Assembly (NCBI GenBank): GCA_018056765.1 | Contig: JAGPFA010000009.1 | Span: 1-64,000, forward strand | Source: Syntrophaceae bacterium | GTDB taxonomy: Bacteria; Desulfobacterota; Syntrophia; Syntrophales; Smithellaceae | Direction: 5' to 3' | DNA: 64,000 nucleotides | Shown: in pieces, positions 26,690 to 43,680 of the stretch | How positions within the stretch are numbered: position 1 is the first letter of the stretch | How the letters are laid out: every line of letters starts with the position of its first letter | Program-made: the position numbers and the translations under genes | Notes under the pieces: model-generated | Seen by the model: only the letters and a program-made list of their open reading frames with translations | Told to the model about the DNA's origin: nothing | The model's database searches: none

Positions 26690-27817
26690 TTAGTGTCTGT
26701 CAAAATCCGTGATTTTTACAGACATCCTGTGAACCCCCTCCATCTGAGTGGTTAAAATGACCATAAATGGGGTCTGCCCCCCCGGAGGAATGATCTCTTT
26801 GGAGGCATTTGCTTTCCCGAGCTCCGCGAGCAGTACGTTTTCATCCAGGCTTTCCAGCTTGGCATCGCTAAGAAGATTACCGCCGAGCGTCTCTTTCGTC
26901 ATCAAAAGTGATCCGTCGGCATTATACAGATTAGCGGCTATTTTAATGTCGGAAACAGGGAAGGATGCCGAATTTTCTGCAACCCCCTCGATAATCCGGA
27001 TGCTTCTGCCCAGTTTGGCGTTATAAACCAGTCTCTGGCGTACGTTGATGAGTTTAATCTCTTTGACGGAGGAACCGGGAACACTCAAACCGGTTTTGAA
27101 CAAATCTCCTATCGCACCGACGGAAGGCCCTGAGGAGAACCAGTAATATCCGCCGGCCAACGCAAGTAAAAGTACAAGGACAATCAGCACCGCCCATTTG
27201 AGTCCTCCTCCTTTTCTGGTCGGGGCAAAATCGTAAACCTCACCATCTCTTTTCTTCTCGGAAGTAACATCGTCGGAGAGGCTTTCTCGTTCACCACGTT
27301 TGCCTTGCTGAGCCGGAGTATGTCTTTTCTTTTCCCCCTCCAGAGACAATTCCGTAACAGGCGCCCCTTCATACTTAATCGTTCCGTCGTAGCGCGTCAT
27401 GGTTTTAAAACTTTCCAGAGGTTTTACAACCGGCGCCGAAACCACGCGCGGTGTTACAGGCCTTTGCTCATCATCCAAACCAAACGGGGAGGGCTCTTTA
27501 TCCTCCGGCACACCCGTTGCGTCTTTTGTTTTTGCGGGCGTTTCTTCCAGGGTGAGCTCAGGAATGAATTCGTCGATGCCTGTATCGACGGTTTCTTTTG
27601 CGGGCGAACTCTCCAGTGTGCTGTAATCCGAACCTCCCCGCACAGACGTTCGGGACTCAAACCCGCTGTCAGCGGTAACGGGGGGAACATCTTTCAGCGC
27701 GGTACTTTCCGCCACGGGAAAACCCTCGACAATCTCTTCCGCTGCGATAGTGGCCAAAAAATCATCCAGCTCCCGCTTTTCCCGCGCCAAATCAAACATC
27801 TCGTTTTTACTATCCAT
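26690..27817 (-). CDS. DUF3426-type membrane protein
   Basis: A 375-residue protein. The N-terminal 200 residues are acidic and low-complexity (many Glu, Pro, Ser, Thr), followed by one membrane segment (about 206-226: VLIVLVLLLALAGGYYWF) and a periplasmic C-terminal domain with LINVRQRLVYNAKLG, ENSASFPVSDIKIAANLY and IPPGGQTPFMVILT, which matches DUF3426. Such proteins often carry an N-terminal zinc ribbon of MJ0042 type; here that ribbon is a separate gene just upstream (27856-28041). The role is unknown. AAGGA precedes the ATG. Confidence 0.75.
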   Translation of the reverse strand: MDSKNEMFDLAREKRELDDFLATIAAEEIVEGFPVAESTALKDVPPVTADSGFESRTSVRGGSDYSTLESSPAKETVDTGIDEFIPELTLEETPAKTKDATGVPEDKEPSPFGLDDEQRPVTPRVVSAPVVKPLESFKTMTRYDGTIKYEGAPVTELSLEGEKKRHTPAQQGKRGERESLSDDVTSEKKRDGEVYDFAPTRKGGGLKWAVLIVLVLLLALAGGYYWFSSGPSVGAIGDLFKTGLSVPGSSVKEIKLINVRQRLVYNAKLGRSIRIIEGVAENSASFPVSDIKIAANLYNADGSLLMTKETLGGNLLSDAKLESLDENVLLAELGKANASKEIIPPGGQTPFMVILTTQMEGVHRMSVKITDFDRH

Positions 27818-27855
27818 GCAATCGTCCTTCCGGCAAATCGATCAGGGTTAATACT

Positions 27856-28041
27856 TTACTTATACACGTCAAGCCCTTTCGGTTCCTCCGCGGCTTTGTC
27901 TGTATGATTCTGCTGTGGCTTTTGAGCCGGGATCCGAATTATATCATTGCAGTTACGGCAGATGAAAATCATGGCGGCGCCTTTCAATTCTTCTGCCTCA
28001 ATGACATATTTTTCCCCACACTCCTCACAAAATATAATCAT
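27856..28041 (-). CDS. Small zinc-ribbon protein (MJ0042-like)
   Basis: A 61-residue protein with two CxxC pairs, FCEECGEKYVI and FICRNCNDIIRI, which should bind one zinc ion. The pattern CxxCxxxYxI matches the MJ0042-type ribbon usually fused to the N-terminus of DUF3426 proteins. In this genome the ribbon is encoded separately, 38 bases upstream of the DUF3426 gene. Its tail is hydrophilic. The ribosome site is weak, so the exact start is uncertain. Confidence 0.7.
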   Translation of the reverse strand: MIIFCEECGEKYVIEAEELKGAAMIFICRNCNDIIRIPAQKPQQNHTDKAAEEPKGLDVYK

Positions 28042-28147
28042 CTTACGGATACCTGTTTCAGGGTTCCGCCGAAAACCATGCTCTCATCTGCGAGAACCAA
28101 AACCCCAAACACTAACTTAAACATGCCAAAGCCAGGCAAGTCACCCG

Positions 28148-29404
28148 TTAACGTCCGCCCTTAAGAAACCTGATCTCTTCTCTTAAGGCGTCTATCTCGG
28201 CCTGGAACGTTTTTTTCATTTCTTCGACGGCGTAAACAACTGCCTCGTGCGGCGACAGCTCTTTTATGGCCGCAACCTTATCTTCAAAATCCTTTTCCGG
28301 TGACGGCAATTGTACCTCTTCGGTCATCACCGCTTCTTCACCAAACACCCTCGGTGCAGGAACCTCCGGTGCCGTGTCAACTGCTTCGAATGCCTGTGCG
28401 GCGAACTCAACGACCGGCTGTTCTTCCGGTTTGGCTTCGGACTCCTCTTCGGCGGCTGTTTCAACAGCAGGAAGATCAAACTCCTCACTTTCCGTCGGGA
28501 TCTTTGTTTCACCGGCATCATCGACGACGGGGATTTCTTCTTTCTCTTCCTCTATTGGAGCGGGAACCAGGGACTCTTCGGCAACTGGTTCTTCAGGGAC
28601 AATTTCCCCGCCGGCCTCAAGGTTGGCGCTCACGGCCCATGCCCGGTATTTTCTAATACTATCAACCAAGACGGCCTGTTTTCTTGATTCATTCATCCCG
28701 CCTTGAATCATGACGCTTTCAAACTGGTCATAAACTGATAACAGCAGATTGGCGGAATCCTGATTCGTACGCGTCCCGCGGACACGGATATATCTGCCGA
28801 GAAAACGGAGGATCCTCAAGAAGCCCTGGATAATACGGTCTCCCGTATAAAACAAATACAATTTATTTATTTCCTCTTCCAGCTGTTCAAGAATTCCCTC
28901 ATTGATTTCCCATTCAATGGACAAAATAATGCTCTTCATGTCCTTGAGAGGTGAGTTGTAAACAACGGACGAGGGGGCGGAGAATTCTTCTTCCTGTATG
29001 TTTTGCTCATCGGTATCACCGAATCCCTGAGCGGCTTCAACCATTATGTTTTTTAAATCATTTTGCTCGTCGGCCTGCATGGGAGCGGCCGCTTCTTTAT
29101 CATCGGGGCCGAATATTGCCGCAAACCTTTGTTCAATTTCGGTCATGAATTTTGACGCGCCCTGTGGGGGCGTATTGTCCTGCGGCACCTCTTCCATTTG
29201 CTCGATATTGTTCTCTGGACCGGTGCTTTCCGACTCATCAGAGACTTCGGAGGTCTGTGCATCTTCTGCCGGAGGAGGTTTTACATTTTCCGCAGGCACA
29301 GGCTCACTGGTTTTCACTTTCTGCTCATGATCATCTTCGGCAAACAAACTGTCCAGACGGCTTTCGACCCCCTGAAGAAATGCTGATTCTTCCTTCATCT
29401 TCAT
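28148..29404 (-). CDS. Acidic multi-segment protein of the MglA-type cluster, function unknown
   Basis: A 418-residue soluble protein I do not recognise. Segments 1-150 and 255-370 are acidic and rich in Glu, Pro, Ala and Val, typical of disordered linkers. A folded helical middle (about 155-260: DMKSIILSIEWEINEGILEQ, LRILRFLGRYIRVRG, LLLSVYDQFESVM) and a short C-terminal coiled coil (KKTFQAEIDALREEIRFL) stand out. Two short motifs, RLDSLFAEDD and RFAAIFGPDD, repeat at residues about 16 and 90, suggesting a short linear binding motif present twice. It follows the GTPase gene by ten bases, so it is likely a partner or adaptor. GGAG lies eight bases before the ATG. Confidence 0.6.
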   Translation of the reverse strand: MKMKEESAFLQGVESRLDSLFAEDDHEQKVKTSEPVPAENVKPPPAEDAQTSEVSDESESTGPENNIEQMEEVPQDNTPPQGASKFMTEIEQRFAAIFGPDDKEAAAPMQADEQNDLKNIMVEAAQGFGDTDEQNIQEEEFSAPSSVVYNSPLKDMKSIILSIEWEINEGILEQLEEEINKLYLFYTGDRIIQGFLRILRFLGRYIRVRGTRTNQDSANLLLSVYDQFESVMIQGGMNESRKQAVLVDSIRKYRAWAVSANLEAGGEIVPEEPVAEESLVPAPIEEEKEEIPVVDDAGETKIPTESEEFDLPAVETAAEEESEAKPEEQPVVEFAAQAFEAVDTAPEVPAPRVFGEEAVMTEEVQLPSPEKDFEDKVAAIKELSPHEAVVYAVEEMKKTFQAEIDALREEIRFLKGGR

Positions 29405-29414
29405 TTTACGGCTC

Positions 29415-30020
29415 CTATTGCAGTTGCTTTTCCAGAGACGACATTGTCAGGTAAATAATCTTCTTAAGCGTCAGAACAACATTTGTCCCTTCCACAGCAC
29501 TGGCTTCAAACGTGGGAACTTTGAGCTCCGAATTCAAATCTTCATCTAATGTTTTGACGTCCAGAATTTCTACGCCCTGCTTTTCCAGATCTCTTTTATT
29601 GTATTGAATCACCAAAGGAATTTCGCGAATGTCTTTATTATAGAGTGTCAGGTTTTCTTCCAGGTTGCGGATGGAGATGATATTTTTATTACGACGGTCG
29701 GCGGCGGAATCGGCGACAAAAACAACCCCGTCGACTCCTTTGAGCACAAGTCGTCTCGTGGAATTGTATTTTACCTGACCGGGAACCGTGTAGAGCTGAA
29801 TTTTCACGTCATAGCCGCTGATTTTTCCCATATCGAAGGGGAAAAAATCAAAAAAAAGCGTCCGATCACCCTGAGTTTTGACTGTTACCATCTCGGAATT
29901 AACCTGTGTACGGCACTTGTCATAAACATACTCAAGATTCGTTGTCTTTCCGCACCTCCCTGGGCCGTAGTAAACTATCTTGGCTTGAATAACCTTGTCT
30001 TTTAAATTAATAAACGCCAA
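29415..30020 (-). CDS. MglA-type small GTPase
   Basis: A 201-residue Ras-like GTPase of the MglA/SRPRB-like branch. G1 is GPGRCGKTT (19-27), the switch II region is TVPGQVKYN (in place of the usual DTPGQ aspartate), and G4 is NKRDL. MglA proteins set cell polarity and control type IV pili and gliding in Myxococcus and relatives, using a roadblock protein (MglB) as GAP. A roadblock gene follows the same direction immediately upstream. The start is a TTG at 30020 with AGGGGGG five bases before it. The threonine in place of the switch II aspartate is the MglA-type variant. Confidence 0.9.
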   Translation of the reverse strand: MAFINLKDKVIQAKIVYYGPGRCGKTTNLEYVYDKCRTQVNSEMVTVKTQGDRTLFFDFFPFDMGKISGYDVKIQLYTVPGQVKYNSTRRLVLKGVDGVVFVADSAADRRNKNIISIRNLEENLTLYNKDIREIPLVIQYNKRDLEKQGVEILDVKTLDEDLNSELKVPTFEASAVEGTNVVLTLKKIIYLTMSSLEKQLQ

Positions 30021-30071
30021 ACTTGCCCCCCTGCAAATTCAACACTATCTTGCATGCCTCACCGGATCCGG

Positions 30072-30458
30072 CTATGATTCCAATACCTCAAGCAGCTCTT
30101 CGACCACCTTGGACATTTTCAGCCTCAGAAAACCAAGCGAGATCTGATTATTAAAAACATTAACCAGCAACAACTCTTCATTTACCTTGCAAAAATAAAT
30201 ATTTTCCTTCTCGCCCTTATGGAACAGCAACGAGAACTCATCCTCGCCGACGATCCTGGCCATACAGCTCATGGCACCGAAATTGGCGGCGGCGAGCGCC
30301 GCCAATGAATATAAGTCTATGGTTTCCTGGCCTTCATTAATTGACGCGATGACATTACCGGCCGTGTCAATAAGCATCACATTCTGAACGCCGGAACCAA
30401 TAAGATTTTCAGTTAAAGTCTCATGAATTTTATCAAGCTGCTTTTGACCTAAAATCAT
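30072..30458 (-). CDS. Roadblock/LC7 protein (MglB-like)
   Basis: A 128-residue roadblock domain, with NVMLIDTAGNVIASI, LAALAAANFGAMSCMARIVG and a final helix. Such proteins act as GTPase-activating or nucleotide-exchange partners of MglA-type GTPases and form homodimers. It lies 51 bases upstream of the GTPase gene in the same direction, so the two are almost certainly a functional pair. The ATG has GAGGAAAG upstream. Confidence 0.88.
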   Translation of the reverse strand: MILGQKQLDKIHETLTENLIGSGVQNVMLIDTAGNVIASINEGQETIDLYSLAALAAANFGAMSCMARIVGEDEFSLLFHKGEKENIYFCKVNEELLLVNVFNNQISLGFLRLKMSKVVEELLEVLES

Positions 30459-30625
30459 AATTGTCTTTCCTCATATTCAGAATATTTTTAACACAAATCA
30501 CCGTTTGGCCCGGCTCCATACAGATTAAACATCACGCTTGCCACCCCCGTCGGCTTGCTTTAACGACACAAAAACCACCACCGGGATGTGTAAATTATAC
30601 ATATTAACCAAGAGTATTATATTAT

Positions 30626-30808
30626 TTATGAATTTTTTTCAAGTATAGAACTTGCGGTATCTTTCAGCTTTTTAACCAGCTCTTCCGTGTCGCGGATCTG
30701 CGTCGCTTTGTTCAGCGAAAGCCCCGACCTGGTGGCAAGCTCCATCCTTCCCTTCAGCCCCGCCTGTTCCTGGACTATTTCAAAAATACGCACCAATCTT
30801 TCTCCCAT
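30626..30808 (-). CDS. Small protein of unknown function in the signalling cluster
   Basis: A 60-residue protein, highly charged and mostly helical, with MELATRSGLSLNKATQ in the middle and ELVKKLKDTASSIL at the end. The middle part hints at a small helix-turn-helix (about residues 20-42), but I cannot assign a family. The start is ATG 30808 with GGAGGGGGG upstream; the longer in-frame reading overlaps the neighbouring gene. Its place between two roadblock-type genes suggests involvement in the same system. Confidence 0.55.
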   Translation of the reverse strand: MGERLVRIFEIVQEQAGLKGRMELATRSGLSLNKATQIRDTEELVKKLKDTASSILEKNS

Positions 30809-30833
30809 GATCCCCCCTCCGTCCCTCCAGAAC

Positions 30834-31205
30834 TTAGGAAACAACGGCGTCCTCAAAAGCGTTGATGACCGCCGGCAGAACTATATTGAGCAAAAGTCCG
30901 AGTTTGACAAGTTTTTTATTTATCGTCACCGTCCATTGATAATCGCCGAACGGAATGACCAAAACGGCCATATTTCCCGCAACATCAATATAATAGTATT
31001 GTCCCAGCTCCGCCGGGTATGTTTTAAGCGCGCTTCTTATCAATGACGTGGCATCATTGAGGAGCGTCGCCTCTGCGATATTCGCCCGATCGGTCGCCAG
31101 GAGCACCTGCCCGTCATCGGTGGTGATGATGCAAGAAGCCACAAAACCATCTCCCAAATCCTTTTTCAGAATGTCCATGCAAACATTCAATTTCTGTATG
31201 TTCAT
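30834..31205 (-). CDS. Roadblock-like protein, paralog of the C-terminal half of the DUF4388 gene
   Basis: A 123-residue protein whose whole length resembles residues about 165-285 of its upstream neighbour: both have GD(G/M)..VA(S/A)xI, a short strand GQVLLATD or SKIVASLHD, GxYYILD or GQYYYIDV, and end in LGLLxNxxIPxxxxAF. The fold is most likely roadblock/LC7. It may form hetero-oligomers with the neighbour and with the MglB-like protein. The ATG follows AGGAGG. Confidence 0.7.
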   Translation of the reverse strand: MNIQKLNVCMDILKKDLGDGFVASCIITTDDGQVLLATDRANIAEATLLNDATSLIRSALKTYPAELGQYYYIDVAGNMAVLVIPFGDYQWTVTINKKLVKLGLLLNIVLPAVINAFEDAVVS

Positions 31206-31224
31206 GAAGCCTCCTTTTTTATAA

Positions 31225-32082
31225 TCACACTATATTCACTTCATTAAATGCTTTCAGCGTTTTGGGAATAATCACATTACGTAAAAGACCCAATGTGCAC
31301 TTATCATTTTTAAATAAAACACACCATTGATATTGCTCGATAATGAGAACCAACAGGGTCTGCCTGTCCTTTAAATCCAGAATGTAATATTCGCCCAGGC
31401 CCCCGGCCGTTGTGTCGGTTAATGATTTTCTGAAAAATTTCGTCAAACGCAGAACAGCCGCCGTCGATTCTGGGGCGTCATGCAGGGAGGCCACGATTTT
31501 GCTTTCATCGATATGGGAAATGCTTGCCGCGACAAGCGCCTCACCCATGTCTCCGGCCATAATTTCCAAGCAGGCGCTCAATTTTTCGTATTGGATACCG
31601 TCCTCAATGTCTTCGGTCGTTTCTCCCCCGTCCGCCTCTTCGAGTCCGGCGTCATCTCCGTCGGCGGTAATCTCGTCACGGAGACGGGAACCTTCCATCA
31701 GCAGCAGCATGAGATTTTTGTCTATTTTCCTGACCAGACCGCTGGTATTAAGAATCTGTTTGATATTGAGCCGCACGTTTTCCCATGTAATCATCTCCAG
31801 TGCGGCTTTTTCAGCTTCCAGATCGCCGCAAACCGCGTCGTACAGCTCCCCCTGTATAAGGCAAAAATGCCCCCAGCGCTTCGAGTCCAGATAAACTTCC
31901 ATGATGCAGGTTTGCCGCTCCATGGAAATAACCTGCAGAAAACTGCCCACGGACAGACCAAACAGCGGCCAGCGTTGTAGTTCATCTTTCATACCTGGAT
32001 CGGTCGCCGGTGCATTATCCAGATCATCGTTGTCAATAATCAGAGTAAAATCCTTTTTCACCACTACCTCATTGTTAAACAT
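31225..32082 (-). CDS. DUF4388 protein with C-terminal roadblock-like domain
   Basis: A 285-residue protein. Residues about 35-130 fit DUF4388: LSVGSFLQVISMERQTCIMEV, then HFCLIQGELYDAVCGDLEAEKA and LEMITWENVRLNI. An acidic linker (about 135-165) joins it to a roadblock-like domain (about 165-285). DUF4388 proteins are common next to receivers and MglA-type GTPases in Deltaproteobacteria. Its 3' end is followed after 19 bases by the single roadblock paralog. The ribosome site is poor, so the start codon is provisional. Confidence 0.75.
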   Translation of the reverse strand: MFNNEVVVKKDFTLIIDNDDLDNAPATDPGMKDELQRWPLFGLSVGSFLQVISMERQTCIMEVYLDSKRWGHFCLIQGELYDAVCGDLEAEKAALEMITWENVRLNIKQILNTSGLVRKIDKNLMLLLMEGSRLRDEITADGDDAGLEEADGGETTEDIEDGIQYEKLSACLEIMAGDMGEALVAASISHIDESKIVASLHDAPESTAAVLRLTKFFRKSLTDTTAGGLGEYYILDLKDRQTLLVLIIEQYQWCVLFKNDKCTLGLLRNVIIPKTLKAFNEVNIV

Positions 32083-32158
32083 TATGTGAACTTAATTATT
32101 ACAGTTACCGTTCAATCCGAACATTCCTTCAGGGCAAATCCCGATGAAACCTCCTGTT

Positions 32159-32671
32159 TCATTGTGCCGCCAGGCCCTGCTTCCTTTGATTTTTTGAAAC
32201 TGTATGCCCCTCTGTGATGGACAGGGCATCCAGGATATTGTCAGCGACACTGTTAATATCCAGCGGCTTTTCCAGATAGCGGAAAACTCCCATGCTGCCG
32301 ACGATCTCTTCAATCTTGGGGGTGCCGAATGCTGTCATCAAAATAACCGGAATTTTGGGATAATTTCTGTTCATATAGGCCAAAAGTTCAAAACCATCCA
32401 TCTTCGGCATGCTCAAATCCGTTACTACCAGATCAATAACAGGGACGGATTTGAGAATCTTTACCGCATCGGCCCCATTGGTGGCCGTATGCAAATTAAA
32501 ATACTGCTTATATATACTCAACCCCTCGGCAATAGTCAGCAAAAGAGGCTCCTCGTCGTCCACGATCAGCACTTCGCGAAGCCGCCATTGCTTGTCGCTT
32601 GCACCATCTGTCTCCGGGAAAGCCCCACTGTGACCGCCTGGTTTGCCAAAGTCATCTGGTAAATTTGCCAT
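32159..32671 (-). CDS. Single-domain response regulator
   Basis: A 170-residue protein consisting of one receiver domain (about 33-155) with LIVDDEEPL, the phospho-acceptor in VVTDLSMPKMDG, ILMTAFG and the lysine in YLEKPLD. The short N-terminal tail and C-terminal tail are hydrophilic, and no output domain is present. It could be phosphorylated by a distant kinase and pass the signal by protein contact, for example to the roadblock proteins downstream. The ATG lies just after GGTGGG, a tight spacing, so the start is a little uncertain. Confidence 0.88.
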   Translation of the reverse strand: MANLPDDFGKPGGHSGAFPETDGASDKQWRLREVLIVDDEEPLLLTIAEGLSIYKQYFNLHTATNGADAVKILKSVPVIDLVVTDLSMPKMDGFELLAYMNRNYPKIPVILMTAFGTPKIEEIVGSMGVFRYLEKPLDINSVADNILDALSITEGHTVSKNQRKQGLAAQ

Positions 32672-33105
32672 AACCCACCATTCTCAAAAGGATCAAGGTT
32701 TTCTTGCCAGTCGTCGAAAACACATAAAGCAAAAGACATGCCCAACTCCATAACCATGACAACCTCCTGTATTATCAGCAAATTACCTTCGGACATATCG
32801 TGAGCATCCTGCCCACCTGAGTAAGTCGAACCGTTCATTTTGGTCAATATGGGAAGAGCTTCTATCATAAAACAAATAAAAAAACCGCCATTAAAATTAT
32901 CTTGACAATGCCATCCCCCCCAAGTAATCTTAATTACTGAAAGTCCCTGACAAAAAGGCAGGCCAAGCGCTTTATTTGGGGGACAATTGGGTTAATTCGC
33001 CGGTTTTGGCAATACGGAAAAACATTAGGCGATAAGGCGTCACCAGCAACGAGTATTGGTGTAAGTCATTACAATCAACAAAATTACGAGAGAGGTGCCT
33101 ACAAT
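32672..33105. other. Intergenic region between response regulator and receptor genes
   Basis: This 434-base region between divergent genes holds the plus-strand promoter (32902-32930) and the long leader. An open frame on the minus strand (about 32566-32868) overlaps the receiver gene by more than 100 bases and shows no family features, so I do not call it a gene. A run of eight C at 32913-32920 lies in the promoter spacer. Confidence 0.5.
32902..32930 (+). promoter_or_regulatory. Sigma-70-type promoter for the chemoreceptor-like gene
   Basis: TTGACA (32902-32907) and TAATCT (32925-32930) are 17 bases apart, a strong pair on the plus strand. Initiation near 32937 leaves an untranslated leader of about 170 bases before the ATG at 33106. 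The leader contains a short hairpin around 33040-33060 (CACCA with TGGTG). I found no match to a known riboswitch consensus in it. Confidence 0.65.
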
Positions 33106-34062
33106 ATGAGCTCAAACAATAATCTCAACGCTGGACAAAAAGCACTTTCGACAAAGTTGACAGGATTGATTGCGGTTATTGTCCTTGTTGCGCTGGCCGG
33201 TTTATTTGTGCAAAAACTTACCAGCGGCGGCAACGCCTTTAGTGATTATCAAAAAAGTGTTAAGCTTTTCAACGACGTCAATGCCGTCCATGCAAATCTA
33301 TATAAGATGAAATACATGGTGGCAACCAGTCAAAGCAAGCAGGACATTACTCAATTCTCCACGCAGCAGACATCCGCACTTAACCAATACCTCAACCAGG
33401 CCAGGCAGGCTCAGGATAGTGGTATCAGTAAAGAACAAAAGACATACTATAAGGCCATTGCGGAAAACCTGGCGGAATATCAAAAGTCGGTCGCACAAGT
33501 AATACGTCTTGCCCCTCTGGGGTCGGACACGGCATACTTTACCATCGCAAATGAAAAAATTGACGCCGTTAATCAGCTTTTTAATCAGTTGATCGAGTTT
33601 GAAGGAAAAAACGCGGAAAAAGAACAAGGCACTTCCATTGTGTCTTACCTGTTTGCCATCTTGCTCATTGCCATACTTGTTGTCTACAGTATCGTGATTC
33701 CGTCATTCATCAAAAAAATGATGGACAGCAATGTTGTCGAGCCGCTGCAGGAAGCATCGGGTGTTCTTCGCGAATATGCGGCGGGAAAATATGGCAGACA
33801 GGTCAACTGGGATGCCGATGACGCCATCGGTGAATTGGCGCAGGCGGTAAACGGACTCAGGACTAAAATCAGTTCGACAGGCGCGCCCAAAGCCCCCGCA
33901 GCTCCTGTGCAGGCGCCCAAAGCCCCCGAGCAGGCTCCACACGAAGTTGAAGACAAAACCAAATCCTTGTCGGATATGGTCAAAAAATCACCCGAAGGCA
34001 AAGAAGTGGAGCATTTGGTCACGTCATCGAAAAAAGCCATCGACAAACTGCAGGAGATTTAA
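33106..34062 (+). CDS. Chemoreceptor-like membrane sensor lacking a signalling domain
   Basis: A 318-residue protein with the front half of a methyl-accepting receptor: a membrane segment (about 18-37), a helical periplasmic sensor domain (about 40-180) of the four-helix-bundle kind with alternating Gln-rich helices, a second membrane segment (about 186-207: VSYLFAILLIAILVVYSIV), and a HAMP-like domain (about 208-260: VVEPLQEASGVLREYAAGKYG). It then ends in a Pro-Ala-rich stretch (about 265-285: GAPKAPAAPVQAPKAPEQAP) and a short charged helix. There is no MCP signalling hairpin, no methylation region and no kinase. It must therefore signal by protein contact or work as an assembly factor. AGAGGTG precedes the ATG. 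Confidence 0.75.
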   Translation: MSSNNNLNAGQKALSTKLTGLIAVIVLVALAGLFVQKLTSGGNAFSDYQKSVKLFNDVNAVHANLYKMKYMVATSQSKQDITQFSTQQTSALNQYLNQARQAQDSGISKEQKTYYKAIAENLAEYQKSVAQVIRLAPLGSDTAYFTIANEKIDAVNQLFNQLIEFEGKNAEKEQGTSIVSYLFAILLIAILVVYSIVIPSFIKKMMDSNVVEPLQEASGVLREYAAGKYGRQVNWDADDAIGELAQAVNGLRTKISSTGAPKAPAAPVQAPKAPEQAPHEVEDKTKSLSDMVKKSPEGKEVEHLVTSSKKAIDKLQEI

Positions 34063-34122
34063 TAGCGGTCAAATGACCGCAGAAAGAAATTGCCGGATAA
34101 TTTCCGGGGCACACAAGAACAG

Positions 34123-34170
34123 ACAACGCCCCCCGCTTCCCGTGAACACAGAAGCGGGGGGCGTTGTTTT
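34123..34170 (+). terminator. Strong intrinsic terminator after the receptor-like gene
   Basis: A 17-base stem, ACAACGCCCCCCGCTTC paired with GAAGCGGGGGGCGTTGT, with an eleven-base loop, is followed by TTTT. It ends 60 bases after the receptor-like stop codon and sits between two convergent genes, so it may serve both. Confidence 0.9.
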
Positions 34171-34209
34171 CGAAAACCTGTACCACTTTCGTGGCATCAG
34201 GTCGCTTCT

Positions 34210-36507
34210 TTAGCGCATCGTCTGGCAGACTCTGTGTATCTGCTTGACATCCGTCACACCCTGAAAGGCTTTGAGTATTCCGTCCTGATAAAGAGTCAGC
34301 ATGCCTTCCGACATGGCGATATTTCTGATCACCTCTATACTTTCACGTCGTTCGATGGAGCGCTTTTTTATTTCCTCACTATTGAGAAGAAGCTCATGGA
34401 TTCCTATTCTTCCCCTGTAGCCTGTTTTATCACAAGCTTCACAGCCTTTGGGGCGGTAGAGCCTGAGGTTTTTTGAGTAGGAAATTTTCTGTAGTTTAAA
34501 ATATTCAGGACCGTAACTTTCGACAATACGATCGAATTCCTCCTGTGTCGGGTTATAGGCTTCCTTGCATTTTTCGCAAAGTACACGCACCAGACGTTGC
34601 GCCAGAACCCCCAAAAGTGAATCCGCAAAATTAAGAGGGTCAATCCCCATATCCAGCAGTCGCGAAATGGTTTCGGGGGCACTGTTGGTGTGCAACGTGC
34701 TTAAAACCAGATGACCGGTCAGGGAAGCCTCAACGGCGATTTTTGCCGTTTCAAAGTCTCTCATCTCACCGACCATAATGATGTCCGGATCCGCTCGCAG
34801 GAAGGAGCGCATGGCGGCCGCAAAATCGAAGCCGATTTTAGGCTGTACCTGAACCTGCCTGAGTCCTCTTTGTGTGATTTCCACAGGATCCTCGGCTGTC
34901 CAAATCTTTCTGTCCGGTTTATTGATATGGCGTAAGATCGCGTGAAGGGTCGTTGTTTTGCCCGAACCGGTCGGTCCGACACAAAGGATCATGCCGTAGG
35001 GCTGCTCGCAGATCCTCAAAATTTCGCGGTAATTCCGCGGGGTCATGCTCATGGCTTCCAGAGGCAAAGTATCTCCCTTGGCCAGGATACGCATCACCAC
35101 ATCTTCCACCCCGCCCTGTGTCGGAATGGTCGCCACGCGCAGCTCGATTTCGCCCACTCCGGGTTTTTTGATTTTGATTTTGCCGTCCTGCGGGACTCTT
35201 TTGATGGTAATGTCCAGATTGGACATCACTTTTATTCTGGAAACAATGGCCGCCCGGTAACTGTAGGGCAACGTCTGATAAAGGGCACAGTCGCCGTCAA
35301 CCCGGTAGCGCACAAGAACATTTTTGTCCATGACGTCCGGCTCGATATGAATATCGGACGCCCGACGTAAAAACGCGTCATTGATTATTTTGTTCACCAG
35401 CTGAATAACCGCACTGTCTGATTCGCGTATAGCCTCCTCATGCTCATCGTCCGTGGCCTCCTCGCCCGCATCGAGCCTGCCGATCAGCTCCGTAAAAGTC
35501 GCTTCCTGTGCATTTTCCCTGTAGAAGAATTCGATGTATTTGAGAATATCCTCTTTCAGGGCAAACTCATATTTTATGTTTTTAGTCTTCAGAATACTCT
35601 CGATCGTATCACGTTTTAGGATATTCTGGGGGTCGTCGACGATAACCCGTATATTCTTGTCATGCCGTGCCAGCGGCACCCATTTCTCCCTCATCAAATA
35701 TTCTTTTTTCAAATTTTTAAGCAAATCGCCGGGAATGGGTGTGCTATGATCGAACACTACGAAATTACTCTGATAAAAAAATTCAAGAGACTGGCCGAGA
35801 TCATTTTTACTGATTTTATAATCACGCATCAGGACATCTTCAAGCGATTCCCTTTTCTCGAGAGCTTCTTTTTTCGCCTGGTTCAAATCTTCTTCTGTGA
35901 TCAGATTATTGGACAACAAATAACCGAACTTCGTTCTCTTGGTCTTAGGATCGATCCTCAACTGATTGTAAATTGCGACTCCCAGCACCTCGGAAATTTC
36001 CTGCAGGAGCACCGGCTCTTCGTCACTGAACGGCCCGTCGCCCTGTTTTCTGTTGATAATTTCAACGGCCCCCATAATTTCTCCGCCGTAGACAATCGGC
36101 ATGGCCAGAATCTGACGGATATTGACGCCGAACCGGGAGTCTCTGTTGGACTCCAAAAGAAGATCTGAATACTGATTGATTTGCAAATTATTGCTGAAGT
36201 CTGAAATGTTGAGCAACCGTCCCGTATTGGTTACATACCCGGGGATGGTCTCATTGCTCACGGCAGTTTTTCTTTCTTTAATTTGGCCGTCCACCTGCAA
36301 CAGGGTCATGATCTCTTTTTTATTTTTGTTATTGACAATATAGATGTGTGCGGCCTCCACCTGAAAAAGATCGACAATCAGAGGGCGGCTGTTGATCAAT
36401 ATTTCTTTTATATTCTGCGCGCTGTTGATGCTGCCGGTCACCTCCTGCAGCCCCTTTTCCAAACGGAGAATATTTTGCAGTTCAGCAAGTCCTGAGCTGT
36501 CTGTCAT
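34210..36507 (-). CDS. GAF-domain type IV pilus assembly ATPase (PilB/GspE family)
   Basis: A 765-residue assembly ATPase with an unusual front. Residues about 14-180 form a GAF domain (AAHIYIVNNKNKKEI, ILAMPIVYGGEIMGAVEIIN). About 190-330 is an MshEN-type N-domain, and about 365-765 is the hexameric ATPase. The ATPase has Walker A GPTGSGKTTT (511-520), the Asp/Glu box RADPDIIMVGEMRD (571-584), the His box STLHTNSA (603-610), and two zinc CxxC pairs (C644/C647 and C689/C692) typical of PilB/GspE. A GAF domain on such an ATPase implies that pilus extension or secretion is gated by a small ligand, possibly a cyclic nucleotide. No pilin or PilC gene is nearby, so this could drive either type IV pili or type II secretion. 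Confidence 0.9.
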   Translation of the reverse strand: MTDSSGLAELQNILRLEKGLQEVTGSINSAQNIKEILINSRPLIVDLFQVEAAHIYIVNNKNKKEIMTLLQVDGQIKERKTAVSNETIPGYVTNTGRLLNISDFSNNLQINQYSDLLLESNRDSRFGVNIRQILAMPIVYGGEIMGAVEIINRKQGDGPFSDEEPVLLQEISEVLGVAIYNQLRIDPKTKRTKFGYLLSNNLITEEDLNQAKKEALEKRESLEDVLMRDYKISKNDLGQSLEFFYQSNFVVFDHSTPIPGDLLKNLKKEYLMREKWVPLARHDKNIRVIVDDPQNILKRDTIESILKTKNIKYEFALKEDILKYIEFFYRENAQEATFTELIGRLDAGEEATDDEHEEAIRESDSAVIQLVNKIINDAFLRRASDIHIEPDVMDKNVLVRYRVDGDCALYQTLPYSYRAAIVSRIKVMSNLDITIKRVPQDGKIKIKKPGVGEIELRVATIPTQGGVEDVVMRILAKGDTLPLEAMSMTPRNYREILRICEQPYGMILCVGPTGSGKTTTLHAILRHINKPDRKIWTAEDPVEITQRGLRQVQVQPKIGFDFAAAMRSFLRADPDIIMVGEMRDFETAKIAVEASLTGHLVLSTLHTNSAPETISRLLDMGIDPLNFADSLLGVLAQRLVRVLCEKCKEAYNPTQEEFDRIVESYGPEYFKLQKISYSKNLRLYRPKGCEACDKTGYRGRIGIHELLLNSEEIKKRSIERRESIEVIRNIAMSEGMLTLYQDGILKAFQGVTDVKQIHRVCQTMR

Positions 36508-37939: not shown

Positions 37940-39263
37940 CATGCCGAGCTATAGTCAAATGTTGTGTATGAGGCATTAGGCGGCGATCCTTTTTTGTTCT
38001 ATACCGTTGACAAACTTAACCCCTTTAACGACTTCAGCCAAACGTTCAGGGCAATGTAAACGAATCCATTTCTTCTGAGCGCATTGACATAATTTAAAAG
38101 CCATCATGATTACCGTGTTGGCGGAAAAACAGCCTCTCACTTTATTTGTTCGCAAACGAACAGTCGCAAAGGTCGATTCAATCGGATTCGTCGTCCGAAT
38201 ATGCCGCCAGTGTTCAGCAGGAAAAACATAAAAGGTCAGCAAAGAATCTCTACCCTTTTCCAGACACTGGGTTGCTTTGGGATATTTTGCTTCATAAGTG
38301 TTCACAAAGTCGTCAAAATAGCGGTTTGCTTCATCCTTATCGGCCGCCTGCCATATTTGATGCAATTGGGCTTTTGCTTTGGATTGAAGGCTCTTGGGCA
38401 AATTATTCAGGACATTGGCTGTTTTGTGTACCCAGCACCTCTGCCAGCGGGTATTATCATAAACTTTGCTCAATGCGCTCCAGAAACCCAGAGAGCCATC
38501 GCCAATAGCGAGTTGGGGAGCAGTGATTAAACCTCTAGATTTTAAATCTAAAAGCAGTTGCCGCCAGGAAAGCTCGCTCTCCCGGAATCCGCCCTCGATG
38601 GCTAACAGTTCCTTTACGCCATCAGCAGTGGCACCCATAATGACCAGAAGGCACTGTTGCTTCCATTGCCGAAACTCATCTTGCCATACAGTTTTAAGGC
38701 GACTGATTGTGGCAGGGGATAATCCCGGAGCATCTTTGCCGACTAAGGCTGCTAAGGCATCGCTGAAATCGCCGGTGGAAACTCCTTTTAAATACAACCA
38801 GGGAATCAATTGCTCCAGACTCCTTGTCTTCCGCAGATATGGCGGCAATATCGCTGAACTGAATGTTATCCTCTCTGAGTCTTGACAAAATCTGTCCCGC
38901 GTCCGAGGCACTTTCACACAAACCGCTCCGATACCTGTTTGAATCTGCCTTTCCGGCATATATCCATTGCGGACATCCGTCGGCAGCCGGATTTGTCCCT
39001 TAAATCTTTATATTGACTTAAGAATAGTTCTATCTCTGCTTCTAATGCCTGAGCCATCAAGCTTCTTGCTCCCTGTCGTAAAATCTCCGCTAGCGGATCT
39101 TCTTCATTTTCTGCTGGATTATTTATCCTTGCTAAACTATCTTTCTTCATGGTGCGTGTATCCTTTCCTTTTTTATTTAGCCGGACGACTGTCGCGAAGC
39201 AACCATCCGGTGGACACACAACCTATAGTCCTAAACACAACTTTTTATTATATCTCGGTCATG
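37940..39263 (-). mobile_element. IS256-family insertion sequence (inactive copy)
   Basis: Inverted repeats of about 30 bases flank the transposase gene. The left one, CATG-CCGAGCTATAGT and onward to TTGTGT (37940-37967), matches the right one read on the opposite strand, CATGACCGAGATATAAT onward to TTGTGT (39236-39263). The total length, about 1.32 kb, is normal for the family. The transposase is broken, so the element can only move with help in trans. Its right end lies 37 bases from the start codon of the big hybrid kinase. Confidence 0.75.
37976..39150 (-). pseudogene. IS256-family transposase, frameshifted and internally deleted
   Basis: The first part (39150 to about 38960) reads as the N-terminus of an IS256 transposase, MKKDSLARINN up to YKDLRDKSG. 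The frame then shifts, and the rest continues from MPERQIQTGIGAVCVKVPR to the stop at 37976. In addition, WKQQCLLVIMGATADG joins two segments that are normally separated by about 27 residues containing the first catalytic aspartate (WADGIY-like region). This piece is deleted here. The remaining catalytic parts, GDGSLGFW and TTNPIESTFATVR, are intact. The combination makes the gene certainly inactive. Confidence 0.85.
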
Positions 39264-39300
39264 CCTGACCGTGATATGTGAAGGAGGACGAAACAGCAAA

Positions 39301-42300
39301 ATGGATACCCTGCCATCCACGGAACCAGAACTCAGTTGCCGGATCACCCGGACCCTGCTCATGTATGTGCGCGAGGAGAACAACGGCTCCCTCGGCAACC
39401 TGTTAGAGGGGCTGGAGCTTGATGAGTCCTACCTCATGGACGACAATAACTGGATTTCTCACGATTTTATGCAAACCCTTTATCGACGGATGATCGAAAT
39501 CCTTGGCGACGAGGACGCGGTTTACAAAATGGCGATAGCGACCATGCGATTCAGGTCGTTCGGTATCCTGGACCGGATCGCCCGGCTCATCAACGATCCC
39601 AAAATCGCTTATTCCCACATCCCCAAGTACAATCGGATGATAAGAGCCAAGGGCGACGTGTTTGTCCATGAACTGGGGGATTCGTGGGCCCTTGTGGAGG
39701 AGCGCTACCACGACGGCAGCCGAAAGACCCACTATGACTGTGATTACATGCGGGGGGTTCTGGCCGGGATACCCACCTTTTTCCACATGCCGGTCGCTCA
39801 CGTGGAGGAAATCGAATGCCAGGTATCGGTCGATATGTATGGCGATAGGACATGGCCGGACGCCCCCGTTTACGGGGCCAAAGGCTGCCTGTACCGGGTC
39901 CGCTTCGCCTCCCGCGGCCCGGCTTCTTTTTGGAAGCGGGTGTTTCGACGGAGGCAGGCATACCAAAACGCCGTCGAAGATCTTCTGGACGCCAATCAAC
40001 GTATACAGGAGAAATATAACGAGGCCCGCAAACTTACTTTCGACCTGGCGGAGGCTAACAAACAGCTCGTTCTATCCAAAAAACAATTCGAATCCAAATC
40101 CGCCGATTTGGAGGTTTCGGAGCGCCAGTATCGGCTCCTAGCCGAAAACGCGACAGATACCATATGGGTCCTGAACCTGGAAACCATGCGCTTCGATTAT
40201 ATTAGCCCGTCTGTTCAAAAACTGATGGGCTTTTCCGCGGAAGAGGCGATGGAAGTCGGCATTGAACGGCTAATCGTCCCTGAATCGTTAGAAAAGGCCT
40301 TGAACAGATTGTCGGAGGAGATGAACAAAGAAAAAACCGGCTTGGCTGACCCCGGTCGATCAGAAGCCTTCGAGCTCCTTCAGAGACGCAAGGACGGGAC
40401 TCATGTCTGGGTCGAAGCCAAGATGAACTTTATCCGCGACGAGCACGGCCGGCCCATGGCTATCCAGGGTGTCTCCCGGGATATTTCGGAGCGTAAACAG
40501 GCTGAAGAGGCGAGGAAACGGACCAAGGCCACGCTCCGGGGTGTTTTTCTCGCCGCCCCCGTCGGCCTCTGTACGATGCAGGACCAGACATTTCAGACGG
40601 CAAACCGTGCCTGGTATGAAATCACGGGTTATACCGAGGAGGAAATCATCGGGAAAACCCCACATATGTTGTCCGACGACGAGGAAGAATTTAAAAGGGT
40701 AGAGAGGGAGTTGTATGACGGCGCGCCGAAGAACGGCGTGAACACGGTGCGGACAAAACTGCGCAGAAAAGACGGCGTGTATCGCGACCTTGTTTTGCGG
40801 GCGGCACCCTTGAATCGGGAAGGTCTTACCGATTTGACCATTGTGGCCATCGAGGATGTCACCGACCGGATCCTCACAGAGCGGGCCCTCAGGGAAAGTG
40901 AGGAGATGTATCGCACCCTCATGGATACCTCGCCGGATGCCATCGTCGTTTTTTCCCTTTCCGGGGAGCTCATTGCCGTCAGCCGTCAGACCGCCCGTAT
41001 TTACGGGGTGGAGAGTGTCGAAGAATTCCTTGAGGAGGTGCGGACGGTATTTGATCTCCTTACGGAGGAGGGAAAGGCCGCAGCCGCGGTGAATATCCCC
41101 ACGGTTATCACCCGCGGCCTATCCCGGGGCAATGAATATGAGATCCGCATCCGTGGGGGCAAGACCATCGTCATGGAGATGAACACCTCGGTGATCAAGG
41201 ATATGGACGGCAACCCCAAGGCTTTTATCAGCGTACTGCGGGATATTACGGAAAAGAAACTGGCGGACAAGATCTTGCGAATCCAGCAGGATCTGGGCAT
41301 GGCCCTGGCCAGGGCGGTGTCCCTCGAGGAATCCCTGGAGCTGTGCCTCGAAGCGGCCGTTGCCGCGGCAGGATGCGACGCCGGGGGCATATATATCCGC
41401 GATCCCGCCTCGGGGTCCTTCAGTCTGCAAACCGTCACCGGCATTTCCCGGGAATATGCGGAGGAGCTGCGCCGCTACGAGGCCGGCTCGGAGCGGGCGA
41501 TGCTCCTGGATGCGGGCTCCCCTATCTACCTGGACGGCGCGGCGGAGATGACCGCATTGAACCTTGCGGACGCCGTAGCCGAGGGGATGCAATCCGCGGC
41601 GCTGATCCCCATCCATTCTCAGGACCAGGTCATCGGCGGTTTTACCCTAGGGGCACGGTATCCCAACGGCATCCCCACCACCGTCCGGGACACCCTGGAG
41701 ACGATCGGCAGTCGGGTCGGATCCGTCATTGCGCGGCTTCAGGCGGAGCAGCTTCTCCGGGAGTCGGAGAGGAAGTTCCGGGATCTGACGGAAAAATCCC
41801 TCGTCGGCATCTACCTGCTCCAGGATAGGCGCTTCAAATACGTCAATGAGGAAATGACGAATATTTTCGGCCATACCGCCGAAGAGATGATCGACCATAT
41901 GGGACTTCAGGAGGTCATTTACCCGGAAGATCTGCCCCTGCTGGTGCAGAACGTTCGCCAGCAAAATGCCCGGGGCTTCAAATCCATGCATCATGAATTT
42001 CGCATCGTCACCAGGGAAGGAGAGGTCCGAAACGTCGAGATGCTCGGCTCCCGAACCCTCTATCAGGGGAGGCCGGCGGTGATCGGCACGCTTCTCGACA
42101 TTACGGAACGGCACCGGGCGCAAGAGGAGTTGCAGCGTCTGAGCACCGCGGTGGAACAGGCGGCGGAAGACATCATCATTACGGACCCGGAGGGGATAAT
42201 CCAATATGTAAATCCGGCTTTCGAAAAGATTACGGGTTACTCCCGGGCAGAGGCGATAGGCCGCAACCCGAGATTTCTCCAGAGCGGCCGGCACGATTCG

Positions 42301-43680
42301 GCCTTCTACAAACGGCTCTGGGATACGCTCAGGGACGGGAGGATCTGGACCGGACATCTTATCGACCGGCGCAAGGACGGGGACATTATCGAGGAAGACA
42401 CCACAATCAGCCCCCTCACCACATCCACCGGGAAGCTCATGGGTTATGTGGCACTGAAGCGTGATGTGACCGAGACGGTGCGGATCGAGGCGCAGCTCCG
42501 TCAAGCCCAGAAGATGGAGGCCATCGGTGTCCTGGCCGGCGGTATCGCCCATGATTTCAACAATATCCTGGGAGCGCTGATGGGTTACGCCGAACTGGCA
42601 AAATTAAAGACGACGGATAAGGGCATCCTTCCTCACCTGGAGCGGATTCTCAAGGCCTGCGACCGTTCTCGTGATCTGATCAAGCAGATCCTAGACTTCA
42701 GCCGCCAGGGGGAGTACAACGTCCAGCCCGTGTCAGTCATCCCCATCGTCAAGGAGGCGATGAAACTGCTGCGCTCTACTATGCCAGCGACGGTGGAGAT
42801 CCGCCAAGTCTATAACACCAGCCATGATATGGTATTGACCGACCCCACCCAGATTCATCAGGTGCTGGTCAATCTCTGCACCAATGCCCTTTATGCCATG
42901 CGAAATCAGGAGGGTGTTCTGGAGGTACGTATCGAGGAGCAGCAGTACTCCGGAGAGGGCCCCCCAGGCGCGCCGCAGTTGAAGGAAGGCGGTTACCTCC
43001 AGATCACCGTGAGCGATACGGGCGAAGGGATCGATCCCGCCTGGAAAGACAGGATCTTCGAACCCTTCTTCACCACCAAGAAGGTAGGCGAGGGCACCGG
43101 ACTGGGGTTGTCGGTTGTTTACGGCATCGTCAGGGACTGTGGTGGTGCCATCACCATTGATAGCGAACCATCCAGGGGAACCGCTGTTACGATCTACTTG
43201 CCCCTTCTCGACGCCGACAGCAGCGCCAAAGAGGAGAAAACGGAAGAAATCCTCCGGGGCCGGGGCCGCATCCTTCTGGTTGACGACGAGGAACCGATCG
43301 CCTCTTTAGGACAGGAGATTCTCTCTTCCCTGGGTTATGAAGTTGACGTGCGGTACAGCAGCAACGATGCCTTGGAGGCGTTTCAGGCGCACCCGGACCG
43401 TTACGACCTGGTGATCACGGATATGACAATGCCGAATATGACCGGCGCCGGACTGGCGAGGGAACTGCTGAAGATCCGCCCCGATCTGCCGATCATTCTA
43501 ACCACCGGTTACAGCGACCGCATAGACGAGGAACAAGCGAAAAAAATCGGGTTCCGGGAGTTTTTAATGAAGCCCGTTTCCCTGATCGAACTCTCTAGGG
43601 TCGTGAAAGAGCAACTTGCCGTCCCCCTGGGGGCCGGAGACCCTCCTGGTGTCTCGGTGCCGGAAAAGACGTACCGGTAA
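39301..43680 (+). CDS. Multi-PAS/GAF hybrid histidine kinase with receiver (1459 residues)
   Basis: A very large soluble kinase. Residues about 10-215 form an N-terminal sensor domain with DDNNWIS, of a type seen in other deltaproteobacterial PAS kinases and distantly like V4R/heme-NO-binding domains. A coiled coil (about 225-270) leads to PAS (about 272-395), PAS (400-520), PAS (525-650), GAF (655-815), PAS (815-945) and PAS (945-1070). Then come HisKA with H1084 in GGIAHDFNN, an ATPase domain with NLCTNALYAM and GTGLGLSV, and a receiver with D1374 in VITDMTMP. No membrane segment is seen. The start is ATG 39301, with AAGGAGG 13 bases upstream; a GTG further upstream lies nearly on the IS right end. 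Codon use is rather GC-rich compared with the IS region. Confidence 0.9.
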   Translation: MDTLPSTEPELSCRITRTLLMYVREENNGSLGNLLEGLELDESYLMDDNNWISHDFMQTLYRRMIEILGDEDAVYKMAIATMRFRSFGILDRIARLINDPKIAYSHIPKYNRMIRAKGDVFVHELGDSWALVEERYHDGSRKTHYDCDYMRGVLAGIPTFFHMPVAHVEEIECQVSVDMYGDRTWPDAPVYGAKGCLYRVRFASRGPASFWKRVFRRRQAYQNAVEDLLDANQRIQEKYNEARKLTFDLAEANKQLVLSKKQFESKSADLEVSERQYRLLAENATDTIWVLNLETMRFDYISPSVQKLMGFSAEEAMEVGIERLIVPESLEKALNRLSEEMNKEKTGLADPGRSEAFELLQRRKDGTHVWVEAKMNFIRDEHGRPMAIQGVSRDISERKQAEEARKRTKATLRGVFLAAPVGLCTMQDQTFQTANRAWYEITGYTEEEIIGKTPHMLSDDEEEFKRVERELYDGAPKNGVNTVRTKLRRKDGVYRDLVLRAAPLNREGLTDLTIVAIEDVTDRILTERALRESEEMYRTLMDTSPDAIVVFSLSGELIAVSRQTARIYGVESVEEFLEEVRTVFDLLTEEGKAAAAVNIPTVITRGLSRGNEYEIRIRGGKTIVMEMNTSVIKDMDGNPKAFISVLRDITEKKLADKILRIQQDLGMALARAVSLEESLELCLEAAVAAAGCDAGGIYIRDPASGSFSLQTVTGISREYAEELRRYEAGSERAMLLDAGSPIYLDGAAEMTALNLADAVAEGMQSAALIPIHSQDQVIGGFTLGARYPNGIPTTVRDTLETIGSRVGSVIARLQAEQLLRESERKFRDLTEKSLVGIYLLQDRRFKYVNEEMTNIFGHTAEEMIDHMGLQEVIYPEDLPLLVQNVRQQNARGFKSMHHEFRIVTREGEVRNVEMLGSRTLYQGRPAVIGTLLDITERHRAQEELQRLSTAVEQAAEDIIITDPEGIIQYVNPAFEKITGYSRAEAIGRNPRFLQSGRHDSAFYKRLWDTLRDGRIWTGHLIDRRKDGDIIEEDTTISPLTTSTGKLMGYVALKRDVTETVRIEAQLRQAQKMEAIGVLAGGIAHDFNNILGALMGYAELAKLKTTDKGILPHLERILKACDRSRDLIKQILDFSRQGEYNVQPVSVIPIVKEAMKLLRSTMPATVEIRQVYNTSHDMVLTDPTQIHQVLVNLCTNALYAMRNQEGVLEVRIEEQQYSGEGPPGAPQLKEGGYLQITVSDTGEGIDPAWKDRIFEPFFTTKKVGEGTGLGLSVVYGIVRDCGGAITIDSEPSRGTAVTIYLPLLDADSSAKEEKTEEILRGRGRILLVDDEEPIASLGQEILSSLGYEVDVRYSSNDALEAFQAHPDRYDLVITDMTMPNMTGAGLARELLKIRPDLPIILTTGYSDRIDEEQAKKIGFREFLMKPVSLIELSRVVKEQLAVPLGAGDPPGVSVPEKTYR

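Follow-up and report, generated by a model that had tools for sequence, protein, structure and literature searches.

A compact MglA-MglB locus associated with a PilB-like ATPase in a Syntrophaceae bacterium and its relatives in the Desulfobacterota

In Myxococcus xanthus, the polarity module (MglA, MglB, MglC, RomR/RomX and RomY) acts together with SgmX on PilB (PMC10329633, PMC7519303, PMC11580455). SgmX is a TPR protein that connects MglA-GTP to PilB, and direct binding of MglA to PilB was negative in a two-hybrid assay (PMC7519303). The receiver protein RomR forms a chain with the roadblock proteins MglC and MglB, and MglA-GTP breaks the contact between MglC and MglB, an arrangement that the authors liken to Rag-Ragulator (PMC10329633). 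The cyanobacterial PATAN-receiver regulators PixE, PixG and LsiR act on PilB1, and PixE of Synechocystis is reported to interact with PilB1 or to act through it (PMC7690835). MglA/MglB genes near PATAN proteins were noted by Wuichet and Sogaard-Andersen in 2014, citing Makarova 2006 (PMC4316618). Most of what is known of the routes from MglA-GTP to a pilus motor and from a response regulator to a GTPase comes from Myxococcus, in which the genes are not clustered. Here we describe a locus at positions 26690-36507 of a 64,000-nucleotide stretch of DNA from a Syntrophaceae bacterium (GenBank assembly GCA_018056765.1, contig JAGPFA010000009.1, positions 1 to 64,000; hereafter the window). On balance, the locus is best read as a compact MglA polarity or activity switch, encoded mostly in one operon, for a dedicated second type IVa pilus extension ATPase. 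One of its proteins carries DUF4388, which we take to be the PATAN domain; the DUF4388 family also occurs in Synechococcus among the control genomes.

Like the Myxococcus system, to whose MglA and MglB its own are closely similar in sequence, the locus includes a further roadblock protein and a receiver, and it is linked to a pilus extension ATPase. Unlike the Myxococcus genes, those of the window form a compact locus that includes a PATAN-roadblock fusion and a new adaptor family. RomR consists of a receiver, a disordered linker and an acidic C-terminal helix that binds MglC, whereas the window receiver (170 aa) ends shortly after its receiver (REC) domain. In place of a TPR protein such as SgmX, the window locus has a dedicated PilB with a fused GAF domain (or TPR, in Desulfobacterales and Desulfurivibrio). 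The locus would work as a compact version of the Myxococcus RomR-MglC-MglB-MglA-(SgmX)-PilB circuit. None of its proteins is assigned to the RomR or SgmX family, because the defining features of these families were tested and are absent from the window. In both the locus and the PixE type of regulator, PATAN/DUF4388 and a receiver are tied to a pilus extension ATPase. In the window, unlike in PixE, the receiver and PATAN are on separate proteins (they are fused in Desulfobacterales and in a pilT-linked protein), the PATAN protein carries a roadblock domain, and MglA and MglB are present.

The neighbourhood is also like the MglA-PATAN neighbourhoods already noted, but the passages of that paper considered here mention neither a PilB link nor the adaptor, the second roadblock proteins or the operon structure (PMC4316618). 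The Streptomyces conservons (histidine kinase, roadblock, protein of unknown function and Ras-like GTPase; PMC4316618) are likewise operons with a sensor-type protein, a roadblock protein and a small GTPase; they contain no pilus ATPase, PATAN or receiver, and their protein of unknown function is different. The initial annotation called the module undescribed. This does not hold for the proximity of MglA/MglB to PATAN (2006, 2014) or for MglA control of PilB, which is known from Myxococcus. It does hold, within the open literature searched, for the locus and its motor link, the adaptor family, the PATAN-roadblock coupler and the alternation of GAF and TPR on the operon PilB, of which no earlier report was found. 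A search on DUF4388-roadblock returned no paper, and a search on DUF4388/PATAN returned unrelated matches only.

The window is contig C43 of a draft genome of 2.5 Mb in 80 contigs (96.9% complete). The closest named relative, whose MglA is 95% identical to that of the window, is a draft genome of Smithella sp.; Syntrophaceae come next. All ten genes listed in the initial annotation are present in the order it gave (Pfam, NCBIfam and open reading frames), and a gene for a 60-aa protein that it missed brings the total to eleven. From the receiver (32671) to the DUF3426 gene (26690), nine minus-strand genes follow one another in the same direction, 11-168 bp apart. The GAF-PilB gene is found upstream of these nine, also on the minus strand. 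Between them, the sensor gene runs the other way, so the GAF-PilB gene is probably outside the transcription unit of the other genes. Relative to the nearest genome (G018), the ratio of nonsynonymous to synonymous substitution rates (dN/dS) is 0.02-0.23 across all eleven genes, which are under purifying selection. The strongest constraint is on MglA, MglB and the small roadblock protein rob2 (0.02-0.04). Because dN/dS is low in all eleven genes and their order is kept in other genomes, the locus is more than a chance arrangement.

The MglA-type Ras-like GTPase (29415-30020, minus strand) has intact catalytic motifs. It matches MglA in PDB 6hjh (E 1e-54), and all four of its PDB matches at E 1e-10 or better are MglA. 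The motifs GPGRCGKTTN, DRTLFFDF, TVPGQ and NKRD align to 6hjh, and this alignment shows the Ras-like fold, the P-loop, the Thr before PGQ, and the catalytic Arg and Gln. The MglB-type roadblock protein (30072-30458, minus strand), a putative GTPase-activating protein (GAP), matches Robl_LC7 at 45.6 bits and the Myxococcus MglB profile at E 7e-39. Its gene is directly upstream of MglA, and the two are coupled as an MglA-MglB pair.

The co-location on which the initial annotation built its proposal is not rare in the Desulfobacterota. There, the MglB-MglA-adaptor arrangement is nearly invariant, and MglA directly adjoins the adaptor in 28 of the 30 best loci. The downstream sequence reaches 9 kb or more at 47 adaptor loci, among which one genome is entered twice (L039 and L210). 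A PilB-type ATPase is encoded within approximately 10 kb at 21 of these loci, and a REC or REC-DUF4388 protein nearby at 22. Genomes of 2-4 Mb mostly contain 4-8 T2SSE ATPase matches, or roughly one per 0.5 Mb, so proximity to PilB is expected by chance in a few percent of loci. Smithella-type genomes retain the gene order of the window. The order in Desulfobacterales is MglB, MglA, adaptor, a winged-helix protein, a zinc ribbon-Cache-HAMP receptor without a signalling domain, an unknown protein, PAS-PAS-HisKA, REC-DUF4388, a small protein and TPR-PilB. In Desulfurivibrio-type genomes it is MglB, MglA, an adaptor-like protein, TPR-PilB and a REC-containing F5 homologue. The operon PilB is therefore fused to GAF in Syntrophales and to TPR in Desulfobacterales and Desulfurivibrio. 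Most adaptor-linked MglAs group in one supported clade of the MglA tree. A single subclade (Syntrophales) holds the GAF-PilB form, and the TPR-PilB forms occur elsewhere, including on a deeper branch. The MglA-PilB pairing is found again in many relatives and so probably represents a built-in switch for when or where the pilus motor works.

The small protein that precedes TPR-PilB in Desulfobacterales (family F13) looks like a roadblock protein by eye, but its hhalign match to rob2 is not significant and it is not claimed as one. One locus (L218:7394-8404) has a 337-aa protein with a TPR-like N-terminus and no ATPase in the position of TPR-PilB; its C-terminus is PilZ-like by eye and has no Pfam match for that domain.

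Two further proteins of the window are assigned to the roadblock fold, as had been proposed. The first (31225-32082, minus strand) contains DUF4388/PATAN (31672-31959; Pfam 30.8 bits) and a C-terminal roadblock domain (31228-31605) in its AlphaFold2 (AF2) model. In this model, residues 158-281 follow the helix-strand-strand-helix-strand-strand-strand-helix order of roadblock proteins. The best fold match is MglB (Foldseek to 6hjm, E 1.5e-5), on which the C-terminus superposes with VIA Z 14.4 and a root-mean-square deviation of 2.4 A over 119 residues. The next matches are to other roadblock proteins and to Rag/Ragulator subunits. As modelled, the C-terminus has a roadblock fold. The second protein is rob2 (30834-31205, minus strand; dN/dS 0.02), which occupies an MglC-like position. 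By homology it is assigned the fold of the roadblock half of the DUF4388 protein, which it matches in hhalign with E 1e-29. In Pfam, rob2 does not match any roadblock family, and neither protein matches MglB by profile-profile comparison. Pfam recognises one roadblock protein in the whole genome, so both extra roadblock proteins escape routine annotation.

Of 20 genomes of the genus, eight contain this MglA together with this PilB paralogue. The two extra roadblock proteins are present in all of these and absent from the other 12 (0/3 with MglA only, 0/3 with this PilB only and 0/6 with neither). For independent genomes the chance of this split is 1 in 125,970, a figure not corrected for relatedness or draft completeness. 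Five Syntrophales genomes that lack MglA have an NtrC-like regulator, the same receiver, rob2 and GAF-PilB side by side. In the two of these clusters examined in full, a histidine kinase precedes and the receiver has a long charged helix. Elsewhere in the window genome, a histidine kinase-like protein, an NtrC-like regulator and a divergent 855-aa GAF-MshEN-T2SSE protein occur in a row (L176:2254-7494, on C56) and resemble these MglA-less PilB clusters.

In the reading that we favour, the locus consists of two units. Unit A would comprise MglB as the GAP, MglA as the GTPase, the adaptor, the zinc ribbon and the membrane DUF3426 protein. Unit B would comprise the receiver, rob2 (which corresponds in position to MglC of Myxococcus) and GAF-PilB. 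The coupler of the two units would be the PATAN-roadblock protein, which is seen only where both are present. A kinase would phosphorylate the receiver, which would then act on rob2 and the PATAN-roadblock protein. These two would reach MglB/MglA by roadblock-roadblock contacts and PilB by the PATAN domain. The GTP state of MglA would set whether or where GAF-PilB, whose GAF domain presumably binds a ligand, drives the shared pilus machine (PilMNOPQ, PilC and PilT, encoded elsewhere in the genome). The exchange of GAF and TPR on the operon PilB is consistent with a motor link, by analogy with the role of the SgmX TPR domain in Myxococcus (PMC7519303). A connection between PATAN and the pilus motor is suggested in the same way by PixE and PilB1 (PMC7690835) and by an MshEN-REC-DUF4388 protein linked to pilT. 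With receiver, roadblocks, GTPase and PilB in one compact locus, and TPR fused to PilB in one branch, the Desulfobacterota provide a list of testable contacts. The locus also suggests a function for DUF4388 in this phylum.

A more specific form of the proposal is tentative, and we judge it rather improbable. MglB, rob2 and the PATAN-roadblock protein would stack into a mixed platform, a bacterial counterpart of Rag-Ragulator, that reads both the GTP state of MglA and the phosphorylation of the receiver and passes its output directly to a dedicated pilus ATPase. The adaptor would then be a new family of MglA effectors or scaffolds with repeated docking motifs and an HPt-like domain lacking the phosphoacceptor.

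Several observations weigh against a switch dedicated to a pilus motor. At 26 of the 47 adaptor loci, those of Desulfonema and Desulfocapsa type among them, there is no PilB near the operon, which means that unit A also functions when no motor is linked to it. MglA occurs without the PilB paralogue in three Smithella-type genomes, and the paralogue without MglA in another three. The AF2 model of the DUF4388 protein is weak overall (mean pLDDT 57), with modest confidence in its DUF4388 half. No kinase was identified for the receiver, and the sensor is poorly conserved beyond close relatives. The module ATPase scores below the cut-offs of both PilB (TIGR02538; 504.4 bits vs 675.65) and NCBIfam GspE (485 bits vs 630).

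Some of these points fit two adjacent but independent systems, in which MglA-MglB-adaptor has an output of its own (polarity, envelope or gliding), the receiver-roadblock unit regulates PilB, and their shared position reflects co-regulation only. The MglA unit stands alone in three genomes (G003, G008 and G012) as well as in the adaptor loci without PilB, the REC-rob2-GAF-PilB unit stands alone in the five genomes described above, and the PilB of the window lies beyond an oppositely oriented gene. Three Smithella-type loci (L023, L024 and L027) have MglB-MglA-adaptor-DUF3426 without PilB, a receiver or extra roadblock proteins nearby, although the contig of L027 ends close to MglA. Independence is nonetheless doubtful, as the PATAN-roadblock protein is restricted to genomes with both units, and linked forms recur on distant branches with GAF swapped for TPR.

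The ATPase itself (34210-36507, minus strand) consists of GAF (35971-36378), MshEN (35515-35748) and T2SSE ATPase (34231-35424) domains in Pfam. Walker A (GPTGSGKTTT), Walker B and the four-cysteine zinc site are all intact, and dN/dS is 0.05. It has the domain composition of PilB (T2SSE ATPase, N-terminal MshEN/T2SSE_N and intact Walker motifs), and because it falls below the PilB equivalog cut-off it is classed from sequence as PilB-like, not as a certified PilB. Within the GAF-PilB proteins of the order it is a second paralogue, specific to the module: it is 72-89% identical to the module PilBs of Smithella-type relatives and approximately 60% identical to a paralogue linked to glyS. This paralogue, a further GAF-PilB, starts beside glyS in the same genome (L234) and is cut by the contig end; glyS-linked GAF-PilB is found in related genomes. 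The module PilB was considered as the sole candidate extension ATPase of the genome, and this was rejected on the evidence of the glyS-linked fragment. Input from cyclic di-GMP (c-di-GMP) through MshEN was also considered and is not supported. The c-di-GMP motif model NF053729 scores 22.1 bits against a cut-off of 38, and the key Gly and Gln are not conserved by eye.

The genome encodes separate type II secretion and type IVa pilus machinery. A complete-looking gsp locus has its own GspE and GspF above curated cut-offs. Genes resembling pilM-Q are on contig C26 and PilT is on C41. A gene on C35 has PilC as its best NCBIfam match, below the cut-off of that family. Because type II secretion has its own GspE and GspF, the type IVa pilus genes are separate and a glyS-linked GAF-PilB exists, the module ATPase is most likely a second, regulated extension ATPase of the shared type IVa pilus. 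The closeness of its PilB and GspE scores would fit service to a type II secretion-like or other pilin-based machine. This is quite unlikely given the separate gsp locus, the separate pilMNOPQ, pilC and pilT genes, the order-wide GAF-PilB beside glyS as closest paralogue, and the module, in which no pilin or secretin genes were found. Still less likely is a main role in motility-independent signalling (e.g., exopolysaccharide or cell-cell contact in filamentous or syntrophic species) with the PilB paralogue as a sensor-regulator, which the retention of the glyS-linked GAF-PilB as a housekeeping extension motor in module-bearing genomes would allow and which the intact Walker motifs, zinc site and low dN/dS of the module ATPase argue against. 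Immediately after pilT in this genome comes the 666-aa MshEN-REC-DUF4388 protein mentioned above (L174:5633-8670, on C41), a second link of PATAN and a receiver to a pilus motor.

The adaptor (28148-29404, minus strand) is acidic and has two short N-terminal motifs, VESRLDSLF and IEQRFAAIF (29342-29368 and 29111-29137), as the initial annotation described. They are followed by a helical domain (28625-28969) and a C-terminal coiled-coil-like helix (28154-28252). In the AF2 model, the helical domain (residues ~151-260) has pLDDT of approximately 90-97 and is accompanied by disordered acidic linkers and the long C-terminal helix. The adaptor belongs to no Pfam family; for its domain, searches of Pfam and of PDB sequences gave no relative and no meaningful match, respectively. 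At the N-terminus of 33 of 38 homologues the pattern [VIL]xxR[LFY]xx[LIV]F is present once or twice, against a single occurrence in 96,771 residues of other neighbourhood proteins; the contrast is descriptive, as the pattern was derived from the adaptor family itself. The domain is found in 60 of 394 genomes sampled from the phylum, and some families have two or three copies of it within one long protein. The CheA P1 (HPt) bundle ranks with its best fold matches (Foldseek probability 0.92-1.00 with E 0.04-0.3; VIA Z 12.4), at a similarity within the chance range for helical bundles. The Smithella-type adaptors have no conserved phosphoacceptor His. In the open literature searched, the adaptor is an undescribed family tied to MglA, and it is probably a scaffold bound to MglA or MglB.

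The conserved 60-aa protein (30626-30808, minus strand; dN/dS 0.06-0.20) adjoins rob2 in modules of the order, in two copies in some. The DUF3426 protein (26690-27817, minus strand; Pfam 41.6 bits) has a single membrane-helix-like segment. As annotated initially, its zinc ribbon is split off and forms a separate 61-aa protein (27856-28041, minus strand; Zn_ribbon_4 31.4 bits). The two genes are also separate in relatives, where the DUF3426 gene comes after the adaptor gene. The adaptor is followed at two loci (L036 and L037) by a zinc ribbon with a fused FHA-like domain (by eye).

The stand-alone receiver (32159-32671, minus strand; Pfam Response_reg 80 bits) contains the phosphoacceptor in VVTDLSMPK and the motifs DDEE, MTAFG and EKP. 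The membrane sensor (33106-34062, plus strand) has four-helix-bundle-like and HAMP-like regions with weak Pfam matches below curated cut-offs, and contains no MCP or kinase signalling domain. The sensor, receiver and roadblock proteins had been proposed to form an input path to the GTPase and the motor. The proposal is partly supported: the MglA-less clusters and the presence pattern in the genus favour a place for the receiver and roadblock proteins in the control of the motor. This support does not extend to the sensor, which keeps its place and orientation in four related genomes, all of them close relatives, and Desulfobacterales operons have a different HAMP-ended receptor.

Desulfonema-type operons (L033, L035, L037, L043 and L054) have a second MglB right after MglA and no module-type PilB nearby. 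A second MglA type in Desulfobacterales (L056:4821-8095; L058-L063) is approximately 56-61% identical to the window MglA and lies, without adaptor or PilB, among conserved neighbours of families F29, F33 and F32. In the window, a Mutator-family transposase gene (37976-38959) separates the PilB end of the module from the gene for a 1469-aa PAS/GAF hybrid kinase-like protein (39271-43680).

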